Source of the DNA: Anaerolinea sp.
GTDB taxonomy: Bacteria > Chloroflexota > Anaerolineae > Anaerolineales > Anaerolineaceae
Length of the DNA: 64,000 bases
Direction: 5' to 3'
NCBI GenBank assembly: GCA_013824865.1
Contig: PNON01000001.1
Span: 1-64,000 of the forward strand
The notes below the pieces were generated by a model, which saw only the letters and a program-made list of their open reading frames with translations, was not told the DNA's origin and ran no database searches. The number at the start of each line of letters is the position of its first letter. Position 1 is the first letter of the stretch. This document shows positions 20,993-28,662 of this stretch, one piece after another. The position numbers were made by a program, and so were the translations under genes.

Positions 20993-22879
20993 TTAACGTT
21001 CGATCAAAGCGCCCCATTCATCCATCAAGCGGGTATGCTCCTCTTCCATGCGGACGTAATCACTGCCGAGCTGTTGTACCTTTCCGGCATCTCCAGTTGA
21101 CTTAGCCAGCTGCGTTGTGATGGCTGCCAGTGATTTTTCGGATTCAGCGATGCGTTTTTCCAGCTCGGAGAGCTTTTTTTGTTTCTTCCAGGGAGAGAGG
21201 CTGGGGTTTGATTTCTGAGCCGCCTGGTTTTTATCTTTTTCCAACCGCGGTATGGTAATTGTGGGCTGGGTGGCAGCCTGAACGCTCTTATACTCGCTAT
21301 ATGTGCCGGTGAAAGTTTTGAGCAAACGTTCATCCGGGCAGACTTCCCATATCTGCGTAGACAGGGCATCAATCAGGTAGCGGTCATGGGAGACGAGCAG
21401 GATGGTGCCTTTGTATTCAGAGAGAACAGACTGCAATATTTCCTGGGATGGCAGATCCAGGTGGTTGGTGGGTTCATCCAGCAGCAGCAGGTTGTAATTT
21501 TGGAGGGCAAGTTTTGCCAGCGCCAGGCGGCCACGTTCACCGCCTGAGAGCAGGCTAACGGGTTTGAAGACATCATCACCGGTAAAGAGGAATTTGGCCA
21601 GATAATCGCGAATGTCTCCTGGCAGCATGGAAGGAGTGATTGAATTAATCTCTTCCATCAAGGTGAGAGCGGGGTTTAAGCCCTCATGAGCCTGGGCAAA
21701 GTAACCGACGGACAAAGAGGCACCCAGGTCCACCTCACCGGCGAAGGGCGGCAGCTGGTTCAGAATGGTCTTTAAGAAGGTGGTCTTACCCGCGCCATTG
21801 GGTCCGATGATGGCTGCGCATTCCAGGCGTTTGAAGGTCAAGTCTGGTACTTTGAAAAGCGGGTTGCCTTCGTCAGCGTAACCCACCTGCAAACCGTAGG
21901 TGCGCAGCACCAGGTTGCCAGAACGACCACCACTCTGGATGCCGAAGTGCAGAGAACGGCTCTTGTGCGGTTTTGCGAGCTGGCTTTCCGCCAGCAGCCG
22001 TTCGAGTCGTTTGAGCCGCCCTTGAGCCTGGCGGGTGTTCTGCCCGGCCATGTTGCGCCGGATGTAGTCTTCTTCCTTATCTACGAACTCACGTTGAGCT
22101 TCATATTCCAACGCCAGGCGGCGATAGCGTTCCTCGCGCTGCTTAAGGTAAGCGGAATAATTACCACGGAAGACTTCCAGGTCAGGCGACATTTCAAAGA
22201 CAGTGTTGGCTACCTGGTCAATGAAATAGCGATCGTGTGAAACGAATAAGACCGCCCCGCCCCACTCTTTGAGGAAATTTTCCAGCCACTCAACAGCATC
22301 AATATCCAAATGGTTGGTAGGTTCATCCAACAGTAACAGGTCGGGGTTGGAGAGCAGCAGCTTCGCCAGCAAGGCACGTGTGCGCTGTCCGCCGGAGAGA
22401 TGCTTAAGCGGTCGGTGAAAATCAGCTTTGGTAAAGCCCAACCCGGTGAGGGTCATCTTGATCTGATTTTCATAACTATAGCCACCCATATGTTCAAAAA
22501 GGATTTGTAACCGACCGTAGCGTTCCAGGTCACCTGGATCAGCTTCCCCGTGACTGATGTGCTCTTCCAGTCCAGTCAGTTCCTCCTGGCGGGTTCGCAG
22601 TTCACTGAAAACCAGCATGCATTCTTCCCACAGGTGATTATCGGAGTCAAAAACGGCTTCCTGCGGGAGATAGCCAATACGGATATTTTTGGCAAAATGG
22701 ATTGAACCTGAAGACGCTTCGTCCATTTTGAGCAGGATGCGCAATAAAGTGGTCTTGCCAATCCCGTTGGCGCCTACCAGGGCGATCCGCGCGCGGTGAG
22801 GGATGCTGAAGCTGATACCAGAGAACAGGTCTTCAGCCCCGAATGACTTACCAAGGGCGGTGGCGGTGAGCAGCGGCAT
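20993..22879 (-). CDS. ABC-F family ATPase (translation factor type)
   Basis: A 628-residue protein with two ABC ATPase domains and no membrane helices. The first has 'GANGIGKTTLL', 'LSGGQRTRALLAKLLL' and 'LLLLDEPTNHLD'; the second has 'GPNGAGKTTFLK', 'LSGGERGRLALAKLAL' and a second LDEPTNHLD. An arginine/glutamate-rich inter-domain linker and a C-terminal coiled coil ('KKQKKLSELEKRIAESEKSL') follow the Uup/EttA pattern. ABC-F proteins act on the ribosome. The track start at 22978 is too early: ATG 22879 begins the conserved 'MPLLTATALGKSFG'. It has no Shine-Dalgarno but a TGT-TATACT element whose predicted start site is the A of this ATG. Confidence 0.93.
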   Translation of the reverse strand: MPLLTATALGKSFGAEDLFSGISFSIPHRARIALVGANGIGKTTLLRILLKMDEASSGSIHFAKNIRIGYLPQEAVFDSDNHLWEECMLVFSELRTRQEELTGLEEHISHGEADPGDLERYGRLQILFEHMGGYSYENQIKMTLTGLGFTKADFHRPLKHLSGGQRTRALLAKLLLSNPDLLLLDEPTNHLDIDAVEWLENFLKEWGGAVLFVSHDRYFIDQVANTVFEMSPDLEVFRGNYSAYLKQREERYRRLALEYEAQREFVDKEEDYIRRNMAGQNTRQAQGRLKRLERLLAESQLAKPHKSRSLHFGIQSGGRSGNLVLRTYGLQVGYADEGNPLFKVPDLTFKRLECAAIIGPNGAGKTTFLKTILNQLPPFAGEVDLGASLSVGYFAQAHEGLNPALTLMEEINSITPSMLPGDIRDYLAKFLFTGDDVFKPVSLLSGGERGRLALAKLALQNYNLLLLDEPTNHLDLPSQEILQSVLSEYKGTILLVSHDRYLIDALSTQIWEVCPDERLLKTFTGTYSEYKSVQAATQPTITIPRLEKDKNQAAQKSNPSLSPWKKQKKLSELEKRIAESEKSLAAITTQLAKSTGDAGKVQQLGSDYVRMEEEHTRLMDEWGALIER

Positions 22880-22885
22880 GCCCAA

Positions 22886-22903
22886 AGTATAACATGGTAG
22901 AAT
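22886..22903. promoter_or_regulatory. Back-to-back extended -10 promoters of two divergent leaderless genes
   Basis: On the minus strand TGT-TATACT (22894-22886) lies 6 nt before the ABC-F ATG. On the plus strand TGG-TAGAAT (22895-22903) lies 7 nt before the ATG at 22911. The two nine-base elements abut without a gap, and neither gene has a Shine-Dalgarno sequence. Confidence 0.6.
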
Positions 22904-22910
22904 TAATCTC

Positions 22911-23921
22911 ATGAAAAAATGGATATTCTGGCTGGGGATGCTCATCAGCGTGGCGCTGATGTATTTTTCTCTACGCAAATTGAATCTCCTCGAAGCCTGG
23001 CATACCCTGCAAACTGCACAATATCTGTGGTTGATCCCCGGTGTGGCGGTTTATTTTGTGGCGGTGTGGGTACGTGCCTGGCGCTGGCACTACTTGTTGC
23101 GTCCATTGAAACAAATTTCCACCCGGGCAATGTTCCCGGTGGTGGCCATTGGCTATATGGGCAATAATATCTACCCCTACCGCGCAGGTGAGGTGTTGCG
23201 CGCGGCGGTGTTGAAGCGCAGGGAAGGTGTACCGATCTCAGCATCCCTGGCAACCATTATTGTGGAACGGGTTTTCGATGGGGTGGTGATGCTGGCTTTC
23301 GTGTTCCTCAACCTGAATGAGCTTTCCAAACTTACCGGCAGTTCAGGTTTCATCGGCGATATTAGATCACTGGCAATTGTAGGCGCAGTGATCTTTATCG
23401 GGGTGCTGCTGGTGTTTCTGTTGGCTGCCATGTTCCCGCGGGTAACCCGTCACCTGGTGGATTGGGTGAATGGGCGGCTGGTACCAGTCAAGTTGCGGGC
23501 GAAGGTGGAAGGGTTGGCATACCGATTCCTGGACGGGCTGGAGGCGCTGCGCTCTCCATTGGATGCGTTGATGATCTTCTTCACCTCTGTCATCATCTGG
23601 CTGTTGGAAACGGGAAAATATTGGTTTGTGATGCACGCATTCCCGTTCGAGGTCAGCTTTTTTGCTCTGATGTTGATGAATGGGATCGTCAACCTGGCGA
23701 CCACCATACCCTCGGCGCCTGGCTATATAGGCACATTCGACGCACCCGGTATTGCCCTGTTAAAGGCATACAACGTTCCCAATGCGGTGGCTGTAGGGTA
23801 CACGTTAGTGCTGCATGCAGCCTTATGGCTGCCCATCACCGCGCTGGGGTTATACTATTTCACCCGAGAAGGATTGCAGTGGGGCATAGTACCCGAGGAT
23901 AACAGCGAGGTGCAGGCGTGA
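22911..23921 (+). CDS. Flippase-like membrane protein (LPG synthase TM / UPF0104 family)
   Basis: A 336-residue integral membrane protein with about eight helices. Conserved family segments are 'VWVRAWRWHYLLRPL', 'IGYMGNNIYPYRAGEVLRA' and 'IIVERVFDGVVML', matching the membrane part of lysylphosphatidylglycerol synthases and the UPF0104 proteins. Members move or modify lipids or polyprenyl-linked sugars; no aminoacyl-transfer domain is present, so a flippase-like role is more likely. Its TGA overlaps the ATG of the next gene, so the two are coupled. Probably leaderless. Confidence 0.85.
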   Translation: MKKWIFWLGMLISVALMYFSLRKLNLLEAWHTLQTAQYLWLIPGVAVYFVAVWVRAWRWHYLLRPLKQISTRAMFPVVAIGYMGNNIYPYRAGEVLRAAVLKRREGVPISASLATIIVERVFDGVVMLAFVFLNLNELSKLTGSSGFIGDIRSLAIVGAVIFIGVLLVFLLAAMFPRVTRHLVDWVNGRLVPVKLRAKVEGLAYRFLDGLEALRSPLDALMIFFTSVIIWLLETGKYWFVMHAFPFEVSFFALMLMNGIVNLATTIPSAPGYIGTFDAPGIALLKAYNVPNAVAVGYTLVLHAALWLPITALGLYYFTREGLQWGIVPEDNSEVQA

Positions 23922-25222
23922 TGGATCAAAGAGTTGCGGTGATCGGGGCAGGGCTGGGAGGAATGGCGGCAGCATACGACCTGGCAAAAGCAGGCAAGGA
24001 TGTTACCATCTTTGAAGCAGCCGGGCATGTTGGGGGATTGGCAGCAGGTTTTAAGGAACCCCACTGGGGTTGGACGGTGGAGAAGTTTTACCATCATTGG
24101 TTCGCCAGTGACAGCCACATGCTAGGGTTGATCAAAGAGTTGGGGTTGGATGACCAGGTGTTATTTCTGCGACCCTATACCGTGATGTACTATAAAGGTA
24201 AGTTTTATCCATTCGATTCGATCCTGGCCGCATTGCTGTACCCTGGATTGGGGTGGGGCATCAACAAGATCCGATTTGGTTTGGTGGGGCTGTTTCTACG
24301 GCTGTCGACGAACTGGAAAGTTCTGGAAACCACCACTGTCGACGCCTGGATGCGTAAATGGGCTGGCAAAAAAGTCTATGAACAGATGTGGGAACCAATG
24401 TTGATTGGTAAATTCGGAGAGACGTTCTCCAGCCAGGTAAATATGGCCTGGTTGTGGGCAAGGTTGCACGTGCGCACTACCCAGCTGGGCACATTCAAAG
24501 GCGGTTTCCAGCGATTCGCGGATTTGTTCGCGGAACGGCTGCAGGAAATGGGAGTGACGATCGAGTTGAACACTCCCATTGTATCCGTTCAGCCATCTGA
24601 TTCATCTAGGCTGGGTCTGCAGGTGAATGGGGAAAAGCGCATGTTCGACCAGTGTCTGGTAACGACTTCGCCAGCCCTGCTGGCAAAAATCGCTCCATCC
24701 CTGCCTGAGGATTATCTAAAAGGTTTGCTGGCATTAAAAAGCATGGGCGCGGTCGTGATGATCTTATCGCTTAACCAGCCTCTGTCAACAGATGGGTATT
24801 ACTGGTACAACATCCCCAAGAGCGCTGGTTTCCCTTTCCTTTCGCTGGTGGAGCATACTAATTTCATTACATCTGCGCATTATGGAGGGGATAACATTGT
24901 GTATATCGGGGACTATCTGGAAGTGGGGCATGAGTACTATAATTTAACTCCGAAAGAATTGCTGCAGCGTTTCATCCCTGGTATCCAGAGTATTAATCCA
25001 CAATTCAAGGAGAGCTGGGTGAGTAAGGTGTGGGTCAACAGTACGAATTACGCGCAGCCAGTCCCCACGATAAATCATTCCCGTAACATCCCAACTATCG
25101 AAACGCCCATCCATGGATTATTCTTTGCCAGCATGAGCCAGGTTTACCCTTGGGATCGCGGGACGAACTTCGCGGTGGAGATCGGCCGACGGGCGGTTCG
25201 ACTAATGATGCATTGCATGTAA
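23921..25222 (+). CDS. FAD-dependent amine-oxidase/desaturase-like oxidoreductase
   Basis: A 433-residue flavoprotein with an N-terminal dinucleotide-binding motif 'VAVIGAGLGGMAAAYDLAKAG' followed by 'FEAAGHVGGLAAGF', the pattern of the phytoene-desaturase/protoporphyrinogen-oxidase superfamily. The C-terminus closes the FAD site ('DRGTNFAVEIGRRAVRLM'). The substrate is not deducible. Translational coupling to the flippase-like gene (TGATG) suggests a role in cell-envelope lipid or glycan metabolism. ATG 23921 is preferred over the overlapping GTG 23918. Confidence 0.85.
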   Translation: MDQRVAVIGAGLGGMAAAYDLAKAGKDVTIFEAAGHVGGLAAGFKEPHWGWTVEKFYHHWFASDSHMLGLIKELGLDDQVLFLRPYTVMYYKGKFYPFDSILAALLYPGLGWGINKIRFGLVGLFLRLSTNWKVLETTTVDAWMRKWAGKKVYEQMWEPMLIGKFGETFSSQVNMAWLWARLHVRTTQLGTFKGGFQRFADLFAERLQEMGVTIELNTPIVSVQPSDSSRLGLQVNGEKRMFDQCLVTTSPALLAKIAPSLPEDYLKGLLALKSMGAVVMILSLNQPLSTDGYYWYNIPKSAGFPFLSLVEHTNFITSAHYGGDNIVYIGDYLEVGHEYYNLTPKELLQRFIPGIQSINPQFKESWVSKVWVNSTNYAQPVPTINHSRNIPTIETPIHGLFFASMSQVYPWDRGTNFAVEIGRRAVRLMMHCM

Positions 25223-25663
25223 ACGAGATTCCGATTTTGGCGCATGGCAACCCAACAGACCAGGCATTGCGATTCAAATCATTTTTAGAACGTATTTTCA
25301 AGAATTATCCACGTTCAGCTATGCGATGTGAGTCTGTGTCAGATATAGCCATTTTCCTAAATGTGCACCCATATATGGGGGATAAAAGTCATGTGGGAAT
25401 GCTGAAAAGATAATGTTAAAAAAGGTGGATATTTAACATTGAGCAACCTTAAAGATTCATAGATTTTTATAAACCCGTAGGGATTCCGACTTGTTATCCA
25501 GGCATCTCTCTGCTAGAATCCTATTGTCTCTGATTGTCAGGGAGCAATGTAACACCCCATAGCATTCCTAATACAATTTAATTCGTTTCCCATTTAATAC
25601 AAATGGGCTGGTATTTTTTACAATTTTTACCAGAAACACTCACCAAATAAGCTGGAGACGGTT
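25223..25663 (+). promoter_or_regulatory. Region upstream of dnaA with DnaA-box-like sites and a promoter
   Basis: A 440-bp stretch without a credible gene. It holds TTATCCACG (25305-25313) and TTATCCAGG (25494-25502), each one or two bases from the DnaA-box consensus TTATCCACA. The second overlaps the -35 of a promoter TTGTTA-N17-TAGAAT (25491-25519). This fits DnaA autoregulation. It could be part of oriC, but two boxes are too few to claim an origin. Confidence 0.4.
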
Positions 25664-27016
25664 ATGAATGCAGATCAAGCCTGGTTAGCGACAATGGGAC
25701 AATTGAAAATGGACATGTCGAAGGCTGCTTATGAGACATGGGTAAAAAATTGCGAATTGGTCTCTCATGCGGATGAAAGATTTACGATTGCCGTTCCCAA
25801 TCCATTTGCCCGCGACTGGTTGGAGAGCCGGCTATCCAGCACTGTAAATCGCATGTTGACAGGTTTCATGAATCTTCCCCAACAAGTGGATTTCGTATTG
25901 CAGCAGCACGAAATACAAAAAGATCATATCAGTATGCCAACTGAAATCATTCCAGCAGAGGCTTCCCCGGTAATTCTCCCAATATATAAAAAACTCGTCC
26001 GTATCAACCCGCGATACACATTTTCCAGTTTTGTCATCGGGCCATCCAATCGGCTGGCGCATGCCGCATCTATGGCAGTGGCTGAAAACCCGGCTGCGGC
26101 TTACAACCCTCTCTATCTCTATGGTGGCGTTGGATTGGGAAAAACACACCTCTTGCATGCCATTGGCAACCTGGGACAGCAACGGGGATTTCAGGTTTTA
26201 TATGTCACTTCTGAGGAATTTACCAACGACCTCATTCAAGCCATCCGCAATCATTCCACGCCGGACTTCCGCGACAGATACCGTGATGTAGATATTCTCC
26301 TCATCGATGACATCCAGTTCATTGCCGGAAAAGAGGCAACCCAGGAAGAGTTCTTCCATACCTTTAACGCGCTGCATGAAATGAACAAACAAATCGTCAT
26401 CTGCTCAGATCGGCCGCCAAGATCGTTGATCACTTTGGAAGAGCGGCTGCGTTCACGATTTGAGATGGGACTCACAGCTGATATTCAGACCCCCGACCTT
26501 GAGACACGTATTGCGATTTTACGCGCCAAGGCAGAGAAAGCCGGGAAAAAGATCCCGGCGGAAATTTTAGAGCTTATTGCCAGACGCTTCCAATCCAACA
26601 TCCGCGAGTTGGAAGGCGCCCTGAACCGGGTAATCGCCTTCTCCGATTTGAGTGGTCTGCCAGTCAATGGCCAGTTGGTGCAAACCGCTGTTTCTGATCT
26701 GATTCCAGCTTCAACATCGGTTGAGCCAGGACAGGTTATCAATACTGTGGCAAATGTGTTTAAAGTTACCAGGGACCGTTTGATCAGTAAAGACCGTTCC
26801 AGGGATATCGCCTTACCGCGGCAGGTGGCCATGTATATCATGCGCGAGGACGCAAATTTCTCCCTTCAGCAAATTGGCAATGAGCTGGGCGGGCGAGATC
26901 ACACAACAGTGATGTACGCCTGTGATAAGGTAGCCGGTCTGCTTAAGAAGGATGACCGGCTTCGCAAACAGGCGCACCATGTGCGTGAAATGTTGTTCGG
27001 CCCTACTTTTTCTTGA
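25664..27016 (+). CDS. dnaA: Chromosomal replication initiator DnaA
   Basis: A 450-residue DnaA with all four domains: helical domain I ('AWLATMGQLKMDMSKAAYETWVK'), a linker, the AAA+ domain III with Walker A 'GGVGLGKTHLLHA', Walker B 'ILLIDDIQFIAGKE' and an arginine-finger region, and domain IV with the DNA-binding signature 'LGGRDHTTVMYACDKV'. It binds DnaA boxes and opens the origin. dnaN, its usual downstream neighbour, is absent; the next genes run on the opposite strand. GGAGA precedes the ATG. Confidence 0.98.
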   Translation: MNADQAWLATMGQLKMDMSKAAYETWVKNCELVSHADERFTIAVPNPFARDWLESRLSSTVNRMLTGFMNLPQQVDFVLQQHEIQKDHISMPTEIIPAEASPVILPIYKKLVRINPRYTFSSFVIGPSNRLAHAASMAVAENPAAAYNPLYLYGGVGLGKTHLLHAIGNLGQQRGFQVLYVTSEEFTNDLIQAIRNHSTPDFRDRYRDVDILLIDDIQFIAGKEATQEEFFHTFNALHEMNKQIVICSDRPPRSLITLEERLRSRFEMGLTADIQTPDLETRIAILRAKAEKAGKKIPAEILELIARRFQSNIRELEGALNRVIAFSDLSGLPVNGQLVQTAVSDLIPASTSVEPGQVINTVANVFKVTRDRLISKDRSRDIALPRQVAMYIMREDANFSLQQIGNELGGRDHTTVMYACDKVAGLLKKDDRLRKQAHHVREMLFGPTFS

Positions 27017-27372: not shown

Positions 27373-28662
27373 TTACTGGTTAATCCTGGCAATGGCAGCG
27401 GTCACAATTTCTTCGATCGGATCATCAGTAGTATATGCCCTGATGGCAGCATCGCGTAAGACGGGGCCTACGGTGGTCATCAGCGCGTTTTCTGGAAGCG
27501 GTTCGGAAATCTTAAGGATCGATTGGAATGGCAACAATTCAACGTTGCTTTGCGGCCAGTATTGATCGGATACAGGTAAATACCCGGCGGTAGTGCTCCA
27601 TGGAGAACCGAAAGCTGGTTCGGTCAGGAAACCAAGCAGTTCCTGGCGGGCAGCTTGTTTCGCAGGAGCAGGATTAGATGAAGCCCAGTACCAACCTGTG
27701 AGAGTCGTTGCTGGTGTGTCGCCCAAGCCTGGCAGGATGGAATGTTGAAAGGAATCCGCGGCACTCTCACTGACGGAGGAATACCAGTTGATCTGATATG
27801 GCACATCACCTGCGATAAATCGGTCGGATACCTGGCTCCAATCAGGTGTGAGGAGAGTCCATTCCGGGAAGACAGCTGATTTTCTGGCCTGACGCATGGT
27901 ATCCAGCAGTAAAGTCAAGGTTGACGGATCAAGGTATGGTTTGCCTTTGTCATCTATTAATTTGCCACCAGCAGAAAGATAAAGCGTGACAAATAGTGTG
28001 CCATCCGGGTCGTTTAAGTTAGCGCCAAGCTTCATCCCGGAGCTAAACACATTCGTCCAAGTATCCATTTGGTTGGATTTATCCGTGGAACTAATGATCA
28101 CCAGAGCGTCACCAGCTGCAGGGAAACCGAATAAGCTGCCTTGCAATGTCCCTGTTAATGAAAAACCAGGAAAAATACCATTTCCGTCTGCAACCGATTC
28201 CATCGAGTCGAGTGGGGCAAGTAACCCTTTCAATGCAGCGGTTTCCATATCCTTACGTGTGAGCAGGACGATATCGGGTAATACTGCCGGGGCTACCCTG
28301 CTGGTGGAATTCAACAGATCCAGCATATTTTCATATTGTTTCACATTCTTATAACGCAGGTCCAGAGTGATATCCGGGTGGGATTTCTGGAAAGTATCCA
28401 TTCTATCCATCAACATTTTTTGAGTCTGCTCGCCGGAGCGGAGGGAGAAATTATCCGGGATCCAGATAAATAAGGTAACTGGCTTAATTGCAGTGGTGAT
28501 CTCCACAGTCTCAGGGGAGGCAGAGCTGGAGGCTGAGGGGGAGAGGGGGGTGGCTGCCTGATCAAGCAAAGAAGGTTGATTTGCGCCAATCTGACCCGGA
28601 AAGATGGAACAACCGGTTAGCAAAAAAATGACGCAAAAGCAGAATGTATTTTTATATGACAT
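27373..28662 (-). CDS. Extracellular solute-binding lipoprotein (family 1 type)
   Basis: A 429-residue lipoprotein with lipobox LLTGC at residues 14-18, a Ser/Ala/Pro-rich linker, and a mature domain that looks like the family 1 (sugar-type) ABC binding proteins ('VTLFIWIPDNFS', 'HPDITLDLRYKNVKQYENMLDLL', 'LPDIVLLTRKDMETAA'). It would bind a sugar or oligosaccharide outside the membrane. No permease or ATPase genes are adjacent, so it is an orphan here or works with a remote transporter. A TATAAT lies 7 nt before the ATG with no Shine-Dalgarno, suggesting a leaderless mRNA. Confidence 0.8.
   Translation of the reverse strand: MSYKNTFCFCVIFLLTGCSIFPGQIGANQPSLLDQAATPLSPSASSSASPETVEITTAIKPVTLFIWIPDNFSLRSGEQTQKMLMDRMDTFQKSHPDITLDLRYKNVKQYENMLDLLNSTSRVAPAVLPDIVLLTRKDMETAALKGLLAPLDSMESVADGNGIFPGFSLTGTLQGSLFGFPAAGDALVIISSTDKSNQMDTWTNVFSSGMKLGANLNDPDGTLFVTLYLSAGGKLIDDKGKPYLDPSTLTLLLDTMRQARKSAVFPEWTLLTPDWSQVSDRFIAGDVPYQINWYSSVSESAADSFQHSILPGLGDTPATTLTGWYWASSNPAPAKQAARQELLGFLTEPAFGSPWSTTAGYLPVSDQYWPQSNVELLPFQSILKISEPLPENALMTTVGPVLRDAAIRAYTTDDPIEEIVTAAIARINQ

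Follow-up and report, generated by a model that had tools for sequence, protein, structure and literature searches.

Gene content and sequence of the locus

The stretch of DNA analysed here (the window, 64,000 nucleotides) forms the first part of a 103-kb contig in the 2.1 Mb draft genome of a member of the Anaerolineaceae (Chloroflexota), whose relatives include Longilinea, Leptolinea, Levilinea, Bellilinea, and Thermanaerothrix. Two of its genes face away from each other across a very short intergenic region. The minus-strand gene (hereafter ABC-F) codes for an ABC-F ATPase with two ABC ATPase domains and an ABC_tran_Xtn linker (Pfam domains ABC_tran, ABC_tran_Xtn, and ABC_tran_CTD), scoring 452 bits against NCBIfam NF000355 (cut-off 380). 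The product of the plus-strand gene (hereafter LPG) is a full-length LPG_synthase_TM/flippase-like protein that matches PF03706 with 185 bits over profile positions 2-302 of 302 and TIGR00374 with 108.8 bits (cut-off 43.2). Both start codons are backed by conserved N-termini of orthologues (MKxW... and M(P/S)L(L/V)...), and no Shine-Dalgarno (SD) sequence was found upstream of either gene. The plus transcript probably includes an FAD-dependent oxidoreductase gene as second cistron, and LPG is followed by this gene also in the relatives G001, G023, G036, G011, and G024. In the window (22911-27016), dnaA adjoins this pair, and the order LPG, FAD oxidoreductase, dnaA recurs in G001, G036, and G011. 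The main features are as follows.

20993..22879, minus strand: ABC-F ATPase gene of the ribosomal protection-like ABC-F family, 628 aa, predicted leaderless (NCBIfam NF000355, Pfam, conserved N-terminus)
22880..22885, minus strand: 6-nt discriminator TTGGGC separating the minus -10 from the ATG, predicted transcription start 22879 (direct reading)
22886..22894, minus strand: extended -10 TGT-TATACT of the ABC-F gene, hexamer 22886-22891 (direct reading; TATACT kept in orthologues)
22895..22903, plus strand: extended -10 TGG-TAGAAT of the LPG_synthase_TM gene, hexamer 22898-22903 (direct reading; orthologue conservation)
22904..22910, plus strand: 7-nt discriminator TAATCTC, predicted transcription start 22911 or 22910 (direct reading)
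22911..23921, plus strand: LPG_synthase_TM/flippase-like membrane protein gene, 336 aa, predicted leaderless (PF03706, TIGR00374)
23918..25222, plus strand: FAD-dependent amine oxidoreductase gene whose first bases overlap the 3' end of LPG (NF005560, 443.8 bits, cut-off 252)

The divergent ATGs (22879 on the minus and 22911 on the plus strand) are separated by 31 bp, which read GCCCAA AGTATA ACA TGG TAGAAT TAATCTC on the plus strand from 22880 and are flanked by CAT (22877) and ATG (22911). On the minus strand, TGT-TATACT (22894-22886) is followed by 6 nt and the ATG (A = 22879), and on the plus strand, TGG-TAGAAT (22895-22903) by 7 nt and the ATG (A = 22911). The preliminary description of this DNA had reported two divergent extended -10 elements with no bases between them, 6 and 7 nt from ATGs that both lack an SD, and reading the sequence reproduced this exactly. 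The extended elements abut, their hexamers are 6 bp apart, and each hexamer is identical to TATAAT in five of six positions.

Conservation of the individual promoters

A TANNNT motif precedes the start by 5-8 nt in 31 of 51 LPG orthologues of the order (by 6-8 nt in all 31), compared to a mean of 4.5 and a maximum of 13 in 500 shuffles of the upstream sequences; the remaining 20 have no element at that distance. The typical form is TGG-TA(G/C/A/T)AAT at 7 nt, and Levilinea saccharolytica carries TGTTATAAT-N7-ATG. A second collection of 80 named genomes, partly overlapping with the first, contains TGG-TANAAT upstream of LPG in 67 cases (6-9 nt allowed). When the 31 orthologues were aligned on the -10, the TG extension reached 1.3-1.6 bits and no conserved -35 appeared (~0.1 bit in that region); likewise, a consensus scan gave no match to a two-hexamer promoter at the LPG/ABC-F junction. 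The base preceding the LPG start is C or T in 30 of these 31 orthologues, which would fit a transcript beginning at the purine of the start codon; in the second collection, it is C or T in 56 of the 67 element-bearing genes. The -10 elements and the nearly constant spacing between them and the start codon have been preserved in different genera, in contrast to the intervening sequence. Since most element-bearing LPG genes have no divergent ABC-F neighbour, the LPG element can be regarded as a self-contained promoter.

For ABC-F, TATACT was found upstream of 21 of 29 orthologues, preceded by TGG or TGT in nearly all of them. Its distance to the start is 6-10 nt in ten of the 21 and 17-43 nt in the other eleven, where the longer leaders partly contain an SD (e.g. 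in G014, G015, and G032). Because the distance between the conserved TGGTATACT and the start codon ranges from 6 to 43 nt in these orthologues (L052-L081), ABC-F seems to have switched between a leaderless and a leadered, sometimes SD-led state within one family. All five genomes in which ABC-F and LPG are divergent neighbours (G000, the host, and G023, G036, G011, and G024) have TATACT 6-9 nt from the ABC-F start; a distance within 10 nt is thus seen in 5/5 divergent genomes compared to 5/16 others with TATACT. This association of leaderless ABC-F with divergence is suggestive only, as the genomes are related to each other. Leaderlessness is apparently not essential to either gene, given that 20 of 51 LPG genes have no close element and about half of the TATACT-bearing ABC-F genes have longer leaders.

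The abutting junction and its history

The same abutting arrangement is present between the same two genes in two further genera, where it occupies 32 bp (G023) and 31 bp (G036). When these junctions were aligned with that of the host, 15 of 18 core positions were invariant compared to 2 of 13 discriminator positions, and the minus discriminator TTGGGC is not conserved among the three genomes. Such a pattern is as expected if the promoter elements, not their surroundings, are under selection. The 18-bp abutting core occurs in three of 147 genomes of the family, each time at the ABC-F/LPG locus. Among 400 genomes of the order, the pattern CAT-N6/7-ANNNTANCATGNTANNNT-N7-ATG was found only at the ABC-F/LPG loci of G000, G023, and G036, with no matches for the reversed-pattern control. 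In an 863-kb sample of the host genome, the ABC-F/LPG pair is the sole convincing divergent gene pair with both elements, and no further abutting divergent leaderless pairs were detected in this sample or in the 400 order genomes (6/7 and 7/7 spacing).

In G011 and G024, the two genes are also divergent and lie 100-120 bp apart, with promoters separated by tens of bp and each half staying with its own gene. Abutment is therefore a variant state and not a requirement. The ABC-F tree (a quick run) places G023, G024, and G036 together and G000 elsewhere; together with the LPG tree (a careful run), it is compatible with either ancestral abutment or more than one origin.

Other arrangements were observed in further relatives. 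In G001, a member of the same genus, other DNA splits the ABC-F/LPG junction (L125:8629-10036, L126:1-378); LPG is located downstream of a membrane-protein gene and still has CATGGTAGAAT-N6-ATG, and the close -10 of ABC-F is lost. In G042, LPG is divergent from another gene (457 aa) across 46 bp (L028:1452-1501). TATAAT and TGATACAAT are located at a distance of 6-7 nt from the two start codons and flank a GC-rich inverted repeat, making this a second compact, doubly leaderless pair by prediction. In G009, LPG and a short gene diverge across 67 bp (L037:1445-1515), and TATAAT precedes the ATG of the short gene by 6 nt; judged by eye, we take the product of the latter to resemble an alkyltransferase-like/MGMT domain.

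Leaderless genes in the host genome

TANNNT shows a sharp peak exactly 6 nt before the first ATG, with 34 of 660 ORFs (5.2%) compared to 0.7% of internal control ATGs, and SD-like strings precede 35% of first ATGs compared to 3% of controls. These genome-wide figures come from 863 kb in stretches and a crude longest-ORF gene finder, so that the percentages are rough and the 6-nt peak is robust. The TG extension is only mildly enriched in the genome's own leaderless class. A proportion of 4.0-5.7% leaderless genes has been published for four Chloroflexi genomes (Zheng et al. 2011, PMC3160421), and in light of both figures leaderless genes can be considered a normal minority class in the host. 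The leaderless-gene literature that we searched contained no transcription-start data for Anaerolineae. Four more candidate start codons in the window, at 28662 (minus), 35130 (plus), 17658 (minus), and 29250 (plus), have a -10-like box 6-8 nt upstream (TATAAT, TGATATAAT, TAGGAT, and TATAAT, respectively) and likely belong to further leaderless genes.

Interpretation of the junction

Given that the promoter elements are conserved in relatives, the layout is very probably real. In all likelihood, the junction consists of two independent, mutually exclusive extended -10 promoters standing back to back, each producing a leaderless mRNA. Both would be complete promoters for the housekeeping sigma factor, of the extended -10 type (TGn-TAnnnT, no -35), fitted into 31 bp. 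With 6-7 nt between each promoter and its ATG, the mRNAs would begin at the A of the start codon or 1 nt before it and would be translated as leaderless. The elements, their spacing, the missing SD, the lack of a visible -35, and the conservation can be observed directly. The leaderless pair proposed in the preliminary description is very probable in view of the conserved elements and distances, the C or T before the ATG, and the leaderless class of the genome, with 22879 and 22911 as predicted starts. Its 31-bp bidirectional promoter region is better described as two separate promoters, each found alone in other genomes, than as one symmetric -10.

From the geometry, the sigma contact regions would abut and each polymerase, at the size generally known for this enzyme, would cover the opposite start site. 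Only one polymerase at a time should therefore fit on the junction, and ABC-F and LPG would draw on a single binding window.

Both genes agree with the definition of TA-led (leaderless) bacterial genes, which have TANNNT ~10-12 bp ahead of the start codon (Zheng et al. 2011, PMC3160421) and lack an SD. As in TA-led genes, the spacing of the -10 would put the transcription start on the start codon; the junction differs from them in having two divergent genes, abutting -10 elements, and the TGn extension.

Extended -10 promoters recognised by sigma-70 consist of TGn-TATAAT and function without a -35. The junction resembles them in that TGn stands immediately 5' of the hexamer (TGT-TATACT, TGG-TAGAAT). 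No conserved -35 is visible in the 31 anchored LPG orthologues, and the elements of the junction, unlike established promoters of this type, are known from sequence alone.

Prokaryotic bidirectional promoters likewise transcribe divergently from a short stretch and exclude two polymerases at once (Warman and co-workers; PMC12825309, PMC10268837), and the ABC-F/LPG junction may compete in a similar way. A further parallel is lysG-lysE of Mycobacterium tuberculosis (PMC5648196), a divergent pair whose promoters overlap and produce a leaderless transcript in one direction. Its intergenic region comprises 108 bp and is regulated by a LysR-type factor; the junction described here differs in its 31 bp and in having no regulator gene.

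Among the alternatives to two back-to-back promoters with leaderless products, the main starts might be located at a greater distance, within the opposing gene, so that the mRNAs would be leadered and the close elements minor or decayed. The 11 of 21 TATACT-bearing ABC-F relatives with longer leaders, some with SD, and the ABC-F frame that is open upstream to 22978 would fit this scenario. We nevertheless consider it unlikely, as there is no conserved upstream promoter or -35, the SD is missing at both genes, and orthologues begin at the proposed ATGs.

Alternatively, the near-palindrome TATACCATGGTA could be an operator for a factor regulating both genes, with the promoters elsewhere. The core AGTATA(A/C)CATG(G/A)TA(G/A)AAT is indeed imperfectly symmetric, and short divergent regions often contain operators such as the inverted repeat of lysG-lysE (PMC5648196). 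An operator would keep its symmetry, however, while each half occurs alone at promoter distance in orthologues without the neighbouring gene and, in G011 and G024 with their 100-120 bp between the two genes, remains next to the gene to which it belongs. Moreover, the conserved positions are those of TGn-TAnnnT and neither gene encodes a regulator, which renders this explanation highly improbable.

Just as improbable is a bidirectional promoter as defined by Warman and Grainger, with a single symmetric -10 serving both directions. Bacteria commonly possess promoters of this kind (PMC12825309), and divergent starts from one short stretch with a near-symmetric core are reminiscent of them. By definition, their divergent starts are 7-25 bp apart with reciprocally overlapping -10 elements (PMC10268837), whereas the junction has separate hexamers 6 bp apart, predicted starts at a distance of 32 bp, and elements that are found alone elsewhere; we therefore did not assign it to this class.

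Finally, a chance occurrence of -10-like strings near two ATGs is barely conceivable: TANNNT is short and appeared on both sides in 0.3% of 200,000 shuffles of the 31 bp, but both TGnTAnnnT elements at 6-7 nt did so in only 5e-6 of cases, and conservation, the stronger test, shows the elements retained in other genera despite diverged flanks, with the arrangement confined to this locus in 400 genomes.

Two mutually exclusive promoters might further act as a selected competition switch, in which the shared polymerase window reciprocally limits initiation of ABC-F and the membrane-protein gene with no need for a regulator. Translation of a ribosome-protection-type factor could then continue from the leaderless ABC-F mRNA when SD-led initiation is impaired. 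We regard this idea as rather doubtful.

Implications

The ingredients of the junction are already known, and its layout, being compact, conserved, and leaderless on both sides, represents an uncommon variant of them; the finding is sound but modest. It represents a minimal divergent promoter that holds both promoters and both predicted 5' ends in 31 bp, is conserved in three genera, and is unique in the order. The junction also supports leaderless expression in Anaerolineales. Moreover, the distance between one conserved -10 and the same start codon varies from 6 to 43 nt among the ABC-F orthologues, a natural series that would permit a direct comparison of leaderless and leadered translation of one gene.
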